DNA of 64,000 nucleotides, taken from the NCBI RefSeq assembly GCF_000522985.1, contig NZ_CP007128.1:2898220-2962219 (forward strand), given 5' to 3'. Shown piece by piece: positions 35,468-58,800 of this stretch (position 1 is the stretch's first letter; each line of letters opens with the position of its first letter). The DNA is from Gemmatirosa kalamazoonensis (lineage in GTDB: Bacteria > Gemmatimonadota > Gemmatimonadetes > Gemmatimonadales > Gemmatimonadaceae). Made by a program: the position numbers and the translations under genes. The notes beneath the pieces are model-generated. The model saw nothing but the letters and a program-made list of their open reading frames with translations, was not told where the DNA came from and searched no databases.

Positions 35468-36040
35468 TCAGCGGGAGCGCGGGACGGCGCGGGTTCGCAG
35501 ATGCTCCACCACGGTGAAGCCGAGGGCGTCCCAGGCCGCGTTGCCCACGTCGTTGTCGGCGGCCGAGTGGAGGCGCATCTCGTCCAGGTCGCGGGTGGTG
35601 CACCACTGCGCCGCGGCGTCCAGCAGGGCGTGCAGCACGCCGCGCCGCCGCTCGGCGGGGACCACGTAGACCGACGCCACGTAGCCGTAGCGCGAGGGGT
35701 CGAGCAGCGGCGAGCCGCGGCTCTCCATGCACCGCAGCACGCCCACCGCACATCGTCCGCGCTCGGCGAGGAACGTCACCTCGTCGGGCGCCACGAGCTG
35801 CGCCGCGAACAGCCGGCGTGCGCGCTCGGGCGCGTCGGCGCGCAGCCGGCCGTAGACCGGGTTCCCGGCGTGCTCGCGCAGCAGCGCGAGACGGAACGCG
35901 AGCACCGTCTCGAGATCGTCGGCGGCCGCGGCCCGGATGGACAGCCGGGACTCGGGACTCGGGACTCGAGACTCGTGCCCCCCGAGTCCCGAGTCCCGAG
36001 TCCCGAGTCCCGAGTCCCGGCGCCTCGGCGTACTACGCAC
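35468..36040 (-). CDS. GNAT family N-acetyltransferase; N-terminus encoded by a repeat array
   Basis: This is a GNAT acetyltransferase of up to 190 residues. The conserved fold starts at LSIRAAAADDLETVLAFRLALLREHAG and includes the acetyl-CoA loop in VASVYVVPAERRRGVLHALLDAAAQW, with RRRG in the place of the Q/RxxGxG/A motif, then NDVGNAAWDALGFTVVEHL. The only conventional start is GTG at 36040, which overlaps the MoxR stop by 8 bp. From there residues of about 8-32 are encoded by heptamer repeats (RDSGLGTRDSGL and SRVPSPESR), which are not part of a GNAT. Either the array has been captured as an N-terminal extension or translation starts at a non-ATG codon near 35944. Substrate is unknown. 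Confidence 0.75.
   Translation of the reverse strand: MRSTPRRRDSGLGTRDSGLGGHESRVPSPESRLSIRAAAADDLETVLAFRLALLREHAGNPVYGRLRADAPERARRLFAAQLVAPDEVTFLAERGRCAVGVLRCMESRGSPLLDPSRYGYVASVYVVPAERRRGVLHALLDAAAQWCTTRDLDEMRLHSAADNDVGNAAWDALGFTVVEHLRTRAVPRSR
35945..36020. repeat. Inverted heptamer array (array A)
   Basis: The left arm has three CGGGACT units and one CGAGACT (about 35947-35974). After a short C-rich spacer the right arm has five CGAGTCC units (35983-36017). The units of the two arms are reverse complements, so the whole segment can fold into one long hairpin. It lies at the MoxR/GNAT junction. Confidence 0.9.
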
Positions 36041-50803: not shown

Positions 50804-51232
50804 GGACGCTCCTCACCGTGGCGGAGACGTTGAGCGCGCAGCCCCTCCGTTGCGCGCGGGGCCCAGCGGGGTGCCACGATAAGGCCGAGTACGGGGGCCG
50901 TCAACGAAAAAAACGCCGTCGGTGGTTAGCGCCGGCAAACGAGGGCAGGAGGGCAGGAGGGCACGAAGCGAGGGCAGGAGACCCTATCGCTCTCCTGCCC
51001 TCCTGCCCTCCTGCCCTCCTGCCCTCCTGCCCTCCTGCCCTCCTGCCCTCCTGCCCTCCTGCCCTCCTGCCCTCCTGCCCTCCTGCCCTCCTGCCCTCCT
51101 GCCCTCCTGCCCTCCTGCCCTCCTGCCCTCCTGCCCTCCTGCCCTCCTGCCCTCCTGCCCTCCTGCCCTCCTGCCCTCCTGCCCTCCTGCCCTCCTGCCC
51201 TCCTGCCCTCCTGCCCTCCTGCCCTCCTGCCC
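50804..51232. other. Intergenic region filled by a repeat array
   Basis: This gap between the sigma factor start and the small membrane protein stop is mostly array B (50941-51234). The remaining 137 bp next to the sigma factor gene has a small AT-richer segment near 50900 (AACGAAAAAAACG) and presumably holds its promoter. No gene is supported: open frames here only translate the repeat as PALLPSC-type low-complexity peptide. Confidence 0.7.
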
Positions 51233-51234
51233 TC
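50941..51234. repeat. Inverted octamer array (array B), about 30 copies
   Basis: The right arm (50992-51234) is about 30 perfect head-to-tail copies of the 8-bp unit CTCCTGCC. The left arm (50941-50980) has about four copies of the reverse-complement form GAGGGCAG, one imperfect, and a spacer of about 11 bp separates the arms. There are no spacers between units, so it is not a CRISPR. Confidence 0.97.
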
Positions 51235-52164: not shown

Positions 52165-53253
52165 TCAAGCGAGCACCTCCAGCAGGAGGGCGTCGTCGAG
52201 CGGCATCGACCAGCGGCCGCCGGCGCTCGCCATCGCGCCGATGCGCTCGGGGAGCGCGTACTCGACGCGGCCGGCGCGCGCCTTCTTGTCGCCGCGCGTG
52301 GCCTCCAGGATCGCATCGGGGGCCATGCCGGCGGGACGGCGCCGCGGGAGGCCGGCGGCGTCGAGGGTCGCGCGGATGGCGTCGGCGGTGCCGGCGACAG
52401 CGATGCCCGCACGTTCGGCGGCCTCGGCCTCCATGGCCATGCCGATCGCGACGCACTCGCCGTGGAGCAGCGAGTAACCGCTCAACGTCTCCACGGCGTG
52501 TCCGATCGTATGTCCGAAGTTCAGGATCTTGCGCATGCCTCCCTCCCGCTCGTCGGCCGCGACGATCGCGGCCTTCGTGGCGACGCTGCCGGCGACGACG
52601 TGCGCGAGGAGCGTCGTCGCGTTGTGACCGTCGGGCGCCGTGAGGAGCGGCAGCGCCGCCCGCACCGCGTCGAAGTACGCCGCGTCCGCGATCACGCCGT
52701 GCTTGACCACTTCCGCGAGCCCGGCGACGAGCTCGCGCCGCGGCAGCGTCGCGAGCACCAGCGGGTCGATGACGACGGCGGCCGGCGGATGGAACGCGCC
52801 CACGAGGTTCTTCCCGTGCGGCGTGTCCACGGCCGTCTTGCCGCCGACCGACGCATCGACCATGGCGAGCAGCGTCGTCGGAACCTGCACCACCGGCACG
52901 CCCCGCATGAACGTCGCGGCGACGAACCCGGCGAGATCACCCACCACCCCACCCCCCACGGCGACGACCGTGGTGTCCCGCCCGCAACCGGCCGAGAGCA
53001 TCGCGTCCGTCAGCCGCGCCCAACTGTCGCGAGTCTTCTGCGACTCCCCCGGCGGGACGTCGAGGCGGAGGGCGTCGGGCAGCATGCCAGCCACAGCATT
53101 GCCGTGGAGCGGCCCGACCGCTGTGTCGGTGATCACAACGTACCGGTGGGCCGGCGCGACCCGGGCGACGAGCGCGCCGATGTCCGCGAGCAGCCCGGGG
53201 GCGACCCAGACGGGGTAGGGCAGGACGCCGCCGGCGGCGTCCTCGCGAGTCAC
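52165..53253 (-). CDS. aroB: 3-dehydroquinate synthase
   Basis: This 362-residue enzyme makes 3-dehydroquinate from DAHP, step two of the shikimate pathway, with NAD and a divalent metal. Motifs include VVAVGGGVVGDLAGFVAATFMRGVPVVQVPTTLLAMVDASVGGKTAVDTPHGKNLVGAFHPP, the GLAEVVKHG metal-ligand segment and KILNFGHTIGHAVETLSGYSLLHGECVAIGM with two histidine ligands. The GTG start at 53253 overlaps the adenosyltransferase TGA. It belongs to a minus-strand run with the adenosyltransferase and the 3D-domain gene, and it is functionally related to tyrA, which is transcribed away from it. Confidence 0.96.
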   Translation of the reverse strand: MTREDAAGGVLPYPVWVAPGLLADIGALVARVAPAHRYVVITDTAVGPLHGNAVAGMLPDALRLDVPPGESQKTRDSWARLTDAMLSAGCGRDTTVVAVGGGVVGDLAGFVAATFMRGVPVVQVPTTLLAMVDASVGGKTAVDTPHGKNLVGAFHPPAAVVIDPLVLATLPRRELVAGLAEVVKHGVIADAAYFDAVRAALPLLTAPDGHNATTLLAHVVAGSVATKAAIVAADEREGGMRKILNFGHTIGHAVETLSGYSLLHGECVAIGMAMEAEAAERAGIAVAGTADAIRATLDAAGLPRRRPAGMAPDAILEATRGDKKARAGRVEYALPERIGAMASAGGRWSMPLDDALLLEVLA

Positions 53254-53801
53254 CACGTCACCTCGCCGGCCCCGGCCCGCCGGTTCGCGACGCGCGCGAG
53301 CACGAACAGCAGGTCCGACAGCCGGTTCAGGTACTGCACCGCGAGGGCGGGGATCTCGATATCGCGCGCGAGCGCGACGACGCGACGCTCGGCGCGGCGG
53401 CACACGGTGCGGGCGACGTGCAGCGCGGCGGCCTTCGGCGTGCCACCGGGGACGATGAACGACTTCAGCGGCTCGAGCTCGGCCTCGCCGTCGTCGATCG
53501 CGCGCTCGAGCTGCGCGATGCGCCCCTCGTCGATGCGCGCCTTCTCGAGCTGCTGCTGCATCTTGTCGCGGTCGGGCGTGGCGAGCAGCGCGCCGATGGC
53601 GAAGAGGTCGCGCTGCACGGGCACGAGCACCTCGTCGATGCGCGGCATCATCTCGATGGAGCGCGCGAGGCCGAGGGCGGCGTTCAGCTCGTCGACGTCG
53701 CCGTACGCCTCGACGCGCGGATGGTGCTTGTCCACGCGGCCGCCGCCGAACAGCCCCGTCGTCCCCTGGTCGCCCGTCCGTGTGTAGATCCGAAGACTCA
53801 T
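53250..53801 (-). CDS. Cob(I)yrinic acid a,c-diamide adenosyltransferase, PduO type
   Basis: This 183-residue enzyme transfers the adenosyl group of ATP to cob(I)alamin. The PduO signature is intact at the N-terminus (YTRTGDQGTTGLFGGGRV, residues about 6-23) and the second ATP segment is ARTVCRRAERRVVALARD. The C-terminal YLNRLSDLLFVLARVAN is also diagnostic. It starts at ATG 53801. TAGATTCGCC lies just upstream (53815-53806), probably a promoter element with a very short leader. Its divergent partner is tyrA, and the intergenic space between them is almost entirely repeat array C. Confidence 0.93.
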   Translation of the reverse strand: MSLRIYTRTGDQGTTGLFGGGRVDKHHPRVEAYGDVDELNAALGLARSIEMMPRIDEVLVPVQRDLFAIGALLATPDRDKMQQQLEKARIDEGRIAQLERAIDDGEAELEPLKSFIVPGGTPKAAALHVARTVCRRAERRVVALARDIEIPALAVQYLNRLSDLLFVLARVANRRAGAGEVTW

Positions 53802-53805
53802 GGAG

Positions 53806-53815
53806 GGCGAATCTA
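53806..53815 (-). promoter_or_regulatory. Candidate start-proximal promoter element of the adenosyltransferase operon
   Basis: On the minus strand TAGATTCGCC ends four bases before the ATG region at 53801. The mirror-image element TAAATTCGCC precedes tyrA on the other strand, so both divergent genes share the same start-proximal sequence TA(A/G)ATTCGCC(C/G)TCCATG. Confidence 0.4.
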
Positions 53816-53822
53816 ATCCCCG

Positions 53823-53948
53823 GTGTGGCGGCGCTGGTACGGCGGCGCTGGAACCTCGGCGCTGATGCTACGGCGCTGAACGCGCGCGGCAGCAGCGCCG
53901 CCGTTCCAGCGCCGAGCCATCAGCGCCGCCGTTTCAGCGCCGCCGTAG
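53823..53948. repeat. Inverted 14-bp-periodic array (array C)
   Basis: This is nine consecutive 14-bp units. The first four are NNNNNN-CGGCGCTG, the fifth is a central AACGCGCGCGGCAG, and the last four are CAGCGCCG-NNNNNN, the reverse orientation. The 8-bp core is invariant and the 6 variable bases differ, partly complementing across the centre. It fills 126 of the 163 bp between divergent genes. Confidence 0.9.
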
Positions 53949-53950
53949 AG

Positions 53951-53960
53951 TAAATTCGCC
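53951..53960 (+). promoter_or_regulatory. Candidate start-proximal promoter element of tyrA
   Basis: TAAATTCGCC lies four bases before the tyrA ATG (53965), matching the element on the opposite strand before the adenosyltransferase. If it is a -10 element, the -35 would be inside array C. Confidence 0.4.
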
Positions 53961-53964
53961 GTCC

Positions 53965-55113
53965 ATGAGCTCCGAGTCCTCCCCCCGTCCGCTCCCGCTG
54001 CTGCGCGCGATGATCGACGCGCTCGATCGGGAGCTGCTGCAGATCATGGCGCGCCGCATGTCGCTGGTCGCCGAGGTGGCGGCGTACAAGCGCGCGCACG
54101 GGCTGCACATCCGCGACGTCACGCGCGAGCGCGAGGTGCTCGCCGATCGGGCGCGCCACGCCGAAGCGTTAGGCCTGCCCCCCGGCGAGATCGAATCGAT
54201 CTTCCGCCTGCTGCTGCGCGCGAGCCGCGACCAGCAGGCCGCGTTGCGCGCCGAGGTCGCGCCCGACGTGGCGCCGCTCACGGTGGCGATCGTCGGCGGG
54301 AGCGGCGGCATGGGGCGCGTGATGGCGCGCGTGTTCGGCGATCTCGGACATCGCGTGCTCGTGGTGGACCTCAACACCGAGCTGCGCGCCGAGGAGGCGG
54401 CATCGCTCGCCGACGTGACGATCGTGAGCGTGCCGATCGACGCGACGGACGCGGTGATCCGCGCCGTCGGGCCGCACGTGCGCGAGGACGCGCTGCTCGC
54501 CGACGTGACGAGCATCAAGGAGGCGCCGGTCTCGGCGATGCTCGCGTCGACGCGCGGGAGCGTCGTCGGCACGCATCCGATGTTCGGCCCGAGCGTGCAC
54601 ACGCTGCAGGGGCAGCGCGTGGTGCTCTGTCGCGCGCGCGGCGACGCGTGGGCGGAGTGGCTCACGCAGGCGTTCGTGGCGCGCGGCCTGGTGGTCACGG
54701 AGACGACGCCGGCGGCGCACGACCGCGCGATGTCGGTGGTGCAGGTGCTGACGCACTTCCAGACGCAGGTGCTCGGCCTCACGCTGGCGCGGTTAGGCAC
54801 CCCGCTGCCGGAGACGCTGCGCTTCACGTCGCCGGCGTATCTGCTGGAGCTCTACGTCGCGGCGCGCCACTTCGCGCAGTCGCCCGGCCTCTACGGCCCG
54901 ATCGAGATGCGCAACCCGCGCTCGGCCGACGTCACGGCGGCGTTCGAGCAGGCGGCCGCGGAGCTGTCGGAGATCGTGACGTCGGGCGATCAGGCGCGGT
55001 TCGGCGCGATGTTCGAGGAGGTGCGCGCGTTCTTCGGCGGCTTCACGGCGGAGGCGCTCGAGCAGTCGTCGTTCCTGATCGACCGGATCGTGGAGCGGAC
55101 GGAGACGGCGTGA
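53965..55113 (+). CDS. tyrA: Bifunctional chorismate mutase / prephenate dehydrogenase (TyrA, T-protein)
   Basis: This 382-residue enzyme fuses an N-terminal AroQ-type chorismate mutase (about 1-90: LLRAMIDALDRELLQIMARRMSLVAEVAAYKRAHGLHIRDVTREREVL) with a prephenate dehydrogenase (about 100-380). The dehydrogenase has TVAIVGGSGGMGRVMARVFGDLGHRVLVVD as its NAD motif, then LADVTSIKEAP and GTHPMFGPSVHTLQGQ, both diagnostic of TyrA. It makes 4-hydroxyphenylpyruvate for tyrosine. It is divergent from the adenosyltransferase-aroB operon. Two GTTAGGC heptamers occur in it (54168 and 54792). Confidence 0.95.
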   Translation: MSSESSPRPLPLLRAMIDALDRELLQIMARRMSLVAEVAAYKRAHGLHIRDVTREREVLADRARHAEALGLPPGEIESIFRLLLRASRDQQAALRAEVAPDVAPLTVAIVGGSGGMGRVMARVFGDLGHRVLVVDLNTELRAEEAASLADVTIVSVPIDATDAVIRAVGPHVREDALLADVTSIKEAPVSAMLASTRGSVVGTHPMFGPSVHTLQGQRVVLCRARGDAWAEWLTQAFVARGLVVTETTPAAHDRAMSVVQVLTHFQTQVLGLTLARLGTPLPETLRFTSPAYLLELYVAARHFAQSPGLYGPIEMRNPRSADVTAAFEQAAAELSEIVTSGDQARFGAMFEEVRAFFGGFTAEALEQSSFLIDRIVERTETA

Positions 55114-55120
55114 CGGGGGG

Positions 55121-55210
55121 ACGGCGGGACGGCTAACGGCGGGACGCCCGAGTGCGGGACGATCAACGGCGGGACGATCAACGGCGGGACGATCGAACGC
55201 GGGATGGCTC
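55121..55210 (+). repeat. Left arm of inverted 15-bp array (array D)
   Basis: There are six 15-bp units built on ACGGCGGGACGATCA, with variant units such as ACGGCGGGACGCCCG and AGTGCGGGACGATCA. The core GCGGGACGATC is the reverse complement of the unit core in the right arm (GATCGTCCCGC), so the two arms can pair across about 270 bp. Confidence 0.92.
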
Positions 55211-55287
55211 TGGGGCGGGCGGAGGCGAGAGGCGCGTTCGGTGCGCGGGGGCGTGGCTCCTCGAAGAGACCATCCTCCCAGTGGTTT

Positions 55288-55331
55288 GGAACGCGGATCA
55301 GCGGATTCGCGAATCCGTCGATCCGCGTTCC
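55288..55331. repeat. 44-bp hyphenated palindrome
   Basis: The outer arms GGAACGCGGATC and GATCCGCGTTCC flank an inner perfect palindrome CGGATTCGCGAATCCG, with one dinucleotide break (AG/TC) on each side. It lies between the arms of array D and resembles, from memory, short dispersed palindromes found in intergenic regions of several GC-rich phyla. Confidence 0.85.
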
Positions 55332-55476
55332 GAACACGAGGAGTCTTCCTGGGCTCGGCGGCGTGGGACGGCGCCGCGATGGTCGGATCCGGTCCGCGTC
55401 GGAGTGGTACGGCAGCGGCTTCCGCGCATAGCACCTTGGGCGAAGGGGGGGGAGCCCCCCTGGCACCTAGGTACGC

Positions 55477-55611
55477 GCCGTTCAATCCCGCCCTCGACCA
55501 TCCCGCAGTGGATCGTCCCGCAGTGGATCGTCCCGCAGTGGATCGTCCCGCGGTGGATCGTCCCGCAGTGGATCGTCCCGCAGTGGATCGTCCCGCAGTG
55601 GATCGTCGCGC
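55477..55611 (-). repeat. Right arm of inverted 15-bp array (array D)
   Basis: There are nine 15-bp units, mostly AGTGGATCGTCCCGC, with the first two degenerate (CCTCGACCATCCCGC type) and the last carrying TCGCGC instead of TCCCGC. They are the reverse orientation of the left arm units at 55121-55210. The array ends beside a GTTAGGC heptamer at 55613 and the ADOP stop codon. Confidence 0.92.
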
Positions 55612-55625
55612 CGTTAGGCGTGCCC

Positions 55626-58667: not shown

Positions 58668-58701
58668 GTGAGACGGTACGCACGCGCGAAAGGTTTCTCT
58701 A

Positions 58702-58800
58702 CGCTCCGCGCTCCGCGCTCCACGCTCCACGCTCGCTCGGTGCCGCGAACTGGCCGAGCGTGGAGCGTGGAGCGTGGAGCGTGGAGCGTGGAGCGTGGAG
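58702..58800. repeat. Inverted heptamer array (array E)
   Basis: The left arm has four heptamers (CGCTCCG twice, CGCTCCA twice, 58702-58729). The right arm has six CGTGGAG heptamers (58759-58800). The arms are inverted around a spacer whose ends CTCGG and CCGAG also pair. The array fills the divergent region between the PadR and ferredoxin reductase genes and ends 17 bp before the latter's ATG. Confidence 0.92.

Follow-up and report, generated by a model that had tools for sequence, protein, structure and literature searches.

What is the long inverted array that fills the gap between two divergent genes of Gemmatirosa kalamazoonensis, and does it belong to these genes? It occupies positions 53823-53948 of a 64,000-nucleotide stretch of the genome (hereafter the window), between a cobalamin adenosyltransferase gene and tyrA. 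The original prediction was an array of protein-binding half-sites serving this promoter pair. The features of the locus, in window coordinates, are as follows.

53250..53801, minus strand: cobalamin adenosyltransferase gene (PF01923), 5' end towards the array
53810..53815, minus strand: putative -10 box TAGATT, beyond the array and 8 nt upstream of the adenosyltransferase ATG
53820..53951, minus strand (orientation best matching the family centre ATACCrCGCGTTAT, a weak assignment for this copy): whole element in its aligned extent, comprising a 3-bp edge, N6, four cores, centre, four cores, N6 and a 3-bp edge
53823..53878, no strand: left arm, four N6-CGGCGCTG units, 14-bp period
53879..53892, no strand: centre AACGCGCGCGGCAG, 14 bp, an imperfect palindrome; the family consensus reads on the other strand
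53893..53948, no strand: right arm, four CAGCGCCG-N6 units, 14-bp period
53951..53956, plus strand: putative -10 box TAAATT, beyond the array and 8 nt upstream of the tyrA ATG
53965..55113, plus strand: tyrA, chorismate mutase / prephenate dehydrogenase (PF01817, PF02153, PF20463), 5' end towards the array

A renewed reading of the array confirmed four N6-CGGCGCTG units, a 14-bp centre and four CAGCGCCG-N6 units. The predicted exact 14-bp register of 4+4 inverted units was borne out, as the step is exactly 14 bp and 8/8 cores are perfect. The N6 words are, in order, GTGTGG, GTACGG, GAACCT and ATGCTA in the left arm, each followed by its core, and CCGTTC, AGCCAT, CCGTTT and CCGTAG in the right arm, each preceded by it. 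Within the 64-kb window an exact pair of cores spaced 14 bp was found in this array only.

A search of the entire genome, whose 7.48 Mb are divided into four contigs (5.31, 1.11, 1.04 Mb and 20,952 bp), has shown the array to be a copy of a dispersed, species-specific element with a fixed build of four units, a conserved asymmetric centre and four inverted units, about 132 bp in all. BLASTN against the window's own genome placed at least about 40 loci among the matches listed, and a sequence-only profile made from 26 copies raised the count to about 60-70 loci, that is, about 60 copies on the chromosome and both megaplasmids. With some 60 further copies of the same layout across the genome, this layout is far beyond chance. 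Thirty-eight full-length 4+14+4 copies could be aligned without gaps; others have 3-9 units per arm or have lost pieces. The element begins with CTG-N6 on one side and ends with N6-CAG on the other, and the flanks beyond are unrelated among copies. The asymmetric centre (consensus given above) occurs in both orientations, with no significant bias relative to gene direction or chromosome position in the few cases available.

The genes around 58 copies, called by a purpose-written codon-usage gene caller, place 21 copies in convergent, 34 in codirectional and three in divergent gaps, the window's copy being one of the three. The general position of the element was shown to be the gap directly behind stop codons: all 76 of the 76 gene 3' ends facing a copy lie within -79..+14 bp of it, most of them at -7, -4 or 0..+3, while the facing 5' ends are spread widely (-7 to +296). 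The element often fills the entire gap from a stop codon to the stop or the -10 of the next gene; its own edge CTGATGA supplies the TGA stop for many genes, and the 14-bp step puts TGA in all frames. Divergent gaps are depleted (5% seen vs 35% predicted by random intergenic placement, with the window's own intergenic gaps as the background; p = 6e-8), also when calculated by junction count (p = 0.007). The neighbouring genes are ordinary and functionally unrelated, including transporters, kinases, nadB/nadA and cytochrome oxidase genes. The position behind stop codons could also reflect tolerance of insertions there combined with deletion of surplus DNA.

These data bear directly on the role first proposed. 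It is very improbable that the array acts as an operator or activator dedicated to the promoters of tyrA and the adenosyltransferase gene, even though it takes up the space between their divergent starts, with a putative -10 box immediately beyond each end. It is one of about 60 copies situated beside functionally unrelated genes, and several copies close to a 5' end likewise show a putative -10, at a variable distance of 5-13 bp from the last core. Furthermore, in the four relatives whose tyrA orthologue is clear, other genes lie upstream and no such array is present. Taken literally, the claim of too little room for a -35 beyond the array is correct, as -10-like boxes stand just outside, but it is uninformative, since leaderless-type promoters sampled elsewhere in the genome do without a TTGACA-like -35 as well: the match to TTGACA was 2-4 of 6 at array-bearing promoters and 2.5 on average at controls (p = 0.64). 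The array as a substitute for a missing -35 was rejected, because the control promoters lack one too. Promoters of this type (TAnnnT 6-8 nt before the ATG, without a -35 consensus) seem to be usual in G. kalamazoonensis. Of the original prediction, therefore, the protein-binding sites stand in so far as the cores behave like recognition sites (see below), but a regulatory array of this gene pair does not, given dispersed copies that normally sit at gene 3' ends, an arrangement not kept in those four relatives and putative -10 boxes outside the array.

To see which positions are conserved, we compared the 38 aligned copies. Mean pairwise identity amounts to 91% for cores, 70% for the centre, 49% for N6 and 28-30% for flanks; kinship between copies in N6 does not exceed that of shuffled units, and the copies form no subfamilies. 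The cores thus look maintained and the rest drifted. The oriented core consensus is CGGC[G/t]C[T/c]G. N6 is nevertheless non-random and has a restricted vocabulary: neighbouring positions are strongly coupled (3-4, z = 14; 5-6, z = 11.6), a handful of words prevail (GTGAGG was observed 26 times vs 4 expected), and the innermost slot has words of its own, GAACGG, ATACGG and AAACGG. Such a coupled, limited vocabulary resembles that of an extended binding site.

It had been predicted that several N6 words are complementary across the centre, and some, but only some, pair in register in the window's copy, but over all copies in-register pairing is no better than in shuffled arrangements, and no covariation of N6 across the centre was observed. 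An RNA hairpin selected through N6 pairing was accordingly rejected. Nor are changes in a core matched by changes in its partner across the centre (80 in-register core mismatches vs 79.7 in shuffled data); the fold is no weaker when copies exchange right arms, and the most frequent core variant, G5 to T (31/304), breaks its pair. These three observations fit recognition of the duplex sequence better than a tuned hairpin, and the conservation of the cores in about 60 copies with uncompensated changes supports their behaving like sequence-specific recognition sites. Since the arm-swap test is also negative in the CGGGACT heptamers described below and borderline in the GGCAGGAG octamers, whose arms pair almost perfectly, it leaves room for a hairpin formed by the cores alone.

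The genome contains other inverted array families. The GGCAGGAG octamers form a dispersed family, and nearly all of the 29 copies examined stand right behind stop codons; 41 facing 3' ends lie within -46..+15 bp, with 14, 13 and 2 copies in convergent, codirectional and divergent gaps, respectively. In the window's octamer array (50941-51234) the right arm is expanded to 30 perfect units. The CGGGACT heptamers, with hundreds of 3-unit matches genome-wide and none in 23 relatives, also have the inverted layout (19 copies), their placement being less clear, as several lie inside predicted genes. The window's example at 35946-36019, (CGGGACT)4-centre-(AGTCCCG)5, i.e. GGGACTC, matches the GGGANTN formula of Xanthomonas. 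Both families often have about four units per arm, and their loop sequences recur in both orientations; among the 14-bp, octamer and heptamer families, the 14-bp one alone has a compound unit. Further inverted arrays are seen in the window: 15-bp-unit arrays (CGGGACGATCAACGG / TCCCGCAGTGGATCG) at 55121-55624, which start beside the tyrA stop and end about 14 bp from the stop of the convergent gene, and a CGTGGAG heptamer array at 58697-58800, which lies in a divergent gap near a start codon, like the array at 53823-53948.

Conservation of the 14-bp phase in relatives had been set as a test of the original prediction. The phase is kept within the genome, but between species the outcome goes against the prediction: no copies of the family were found in 39 related genomes, where six weak matches that we examined appear fortuitous, and a search with a 28-base pattern had 0 matches in genome_contigs and viral_contigs, from which the G. 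kalamazoonensis genome itself is possibly excluded. A comparison of the nadB-nadA gap shows what relatives have instead. In G. kalamazoonensis nadB keeps its natural C-terminus (..EW-stop) and the 14-bp element follows directly. At this place relative G015 (L121; nadA 88% identical) has an inverted GAGCGTC heptamer array and relative G002 an inverted ATTGCGG heptamer array; in most other relatives the gap is short and without an obvious array. G015 carries dispersed GAGCGTC arrays, of which the G. kalamazoonensis genome has none. One of the dispersed inverted arrays of G015 thus lies exactly in the slot that holds the 14-bp element here.

The inverted layout common to the sequence-unrelated 7-, 8- and 14-bp families, the position that the octamers share as well, and the filling of the nadB-nadA slot by different inverted arrays in relatives would all be expected of a pure RNA device, in which inverted cores of any sequence form a long hairpin right behind a gene's stop codon, terminating transcription or shielding the 3' ends of mRNAs. 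The predicted RNA fold of the adenosyltransferase-tyrA gap is also strong (-115 kcal/mol, z = -10.7). We consider this explanation unlikely, because N6 does not covary, core changes are uncompensated, some 60 loci retain one and the same 8-mer where any would pair, and no U-tract follows the element (T fraction 0.21). With intrinsic terminators the element shares a stem-loop directly after stops that is common to convergent genes; it differs from them in the missing U-tract, in interrupted arms of about 55 bp that are far longer than needed, and in a sequence kept among copies. Rfam gave nothing above the gathering score; the matches below it were to hairpin families, for example microRNAs.

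Dispersal in a single species, unrelated flanks and an asymmetric centre present in both orientations, the last being seen also for the loops of the octamer and heptamer families, could indicate a mobile palindrome, selfish or non-autonomous and REP- or MITE-like; a transposase or recombinase recognizing cores and centre would have distributed its copies, and these would survive behind stop codons because they are harmless there. This is possible, yet several observations make it somewhat unlikely. Y1 transposases (PF01797) had 0 matches in the genome, while the control search was positive in 5/14 genomes, and target duplication was not above that of shuffled elements (k = 4). The N6 parts have no parent-daughter similarity, although selection at copying alone would leave recent lineages, and the cores are far better kept than N6. 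Finally, random intergenic insertion would give about 35% divergent placements. REP/BIME sequences with RAYT transposases are dispersed extragenic palindromes with tens to hundreds of copies (PMC2817692, PMC3733652). The 14-bp element, too, is a dispersed extragenic palindrome, but it has eight phased sites instead of a 20-40 bp hairpin and no GTAG or CGTC tag at the aligned edges. Membership in the REP/RAYT class was rejected, as the genome has 0 RAYT-type (PF01797) genes and the tag is missing. The target-site duplication of a MITE was likewise not found, pairing of the edges being no higher than in the shuffled elements mentioned above.

Tandem arrays of short units are known from other bacteria. 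The STRR heptamers of heterocystous cyanobacteria are intergenic tandem short units that form species-specific sets. The TAACTGA heptamers of Beggiatoaceae are almost all direct repeats, mostly just upstream of start codons (PMC4679880). The 14-bp family resembles both in being intergenic, tandem and species-specific, and differs from TAACTGA in that its arrays are inverted and stand after stop codons. The GGGAATC / GGGANTN heptamers of Xanthomonas (and GGGGAYT of Nostoc) form dispersed arrays, mostly of four units; in Xanthomonas many are inverted pairs (70-75 cases per genome), they lie near or overlap stop codons, are rare between divergent ORFs, differ between species and are not tied to mobile elements (PMC4692102). 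Transcript starts and stops are commoner at the G4-forming stop-adjacent arrays than at control arrays (PMC4692102). Like these heptamers, the 14-bp family is inverted, prefers four units, lies close to stops and is depleted from divergent gaps (3/58). Unlike them, it has a 14-bp unit made of the core CGGCGCTG and a variable, limited N6, a number mostly fixed at 4+4 and a conserved centre, and with 0.5 GGG per copy it lacks the G-tracts of a quadruplex. Among the kinds described so far the Xanthomonas GGGAATC class comes nearest to the element, by position and layout, but the unit without a G-tract makes the element a variant of that class and not one of its members. The core as a methylation target was rejected, since the published motifs RGATCY, ATGCAC and CCAGN7TCA (PMC3974934) do not match it.

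Taken together, we favor, with a probability of about 0.4, the reading that the element is a gene boundary read through its cores, probably by a putative DNA-binding protein, as a two-way roadblock or insulator. Such a protein would recognize the oriented 8-bp core in duplex DNA and fill the 4+4 sites; a polymerase arriving from either side would meet four sites of the same orientation, and transcription would be stopped or insulated, with or without the help of an RNA hairpin formed by the cores. The window's copy, now between two divergent starts, may only insulate or be neutral. We count in favor of the boundary the presence of about 60 copies on three replicons, the placement at 3' ends and the divergent depletion, the kept cores with drifted N6 and its limited vocabulary, the uncompensated core changes, the nadB C-terminus intact up to the element, the two relatives with other inverted arrays at that place, and the precedent of transcript starts and stops at the Xanthomonas arrays (PMC4692102). 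Against it count the three copies in divergent gaps, where a terminator is unneeded, and the ability of the cores alone to form the strong hairpin predicted for the window's gap.

The stop-hugging inverted arrays of Xanthomonas have been described without a mechanism, and here at least three unrelated inverted families occur in one genome. The fixed 4+4 design with its clean separation of conserved and free positions makes the DNA-sequence and RNA-hairpin readings testable, as core and N6 can be mutated separately. More speculatively, and in our opinion improbably, Gemmatimonadaceae may follow a general, sequence-independent boundary plan, in which each species places inverted arrays of its own unit behind stop codons, often with about four units per arm; in the 14-bp family the units would be phased docking sites for a putative DNA-binding two-way polymerase roadblock.
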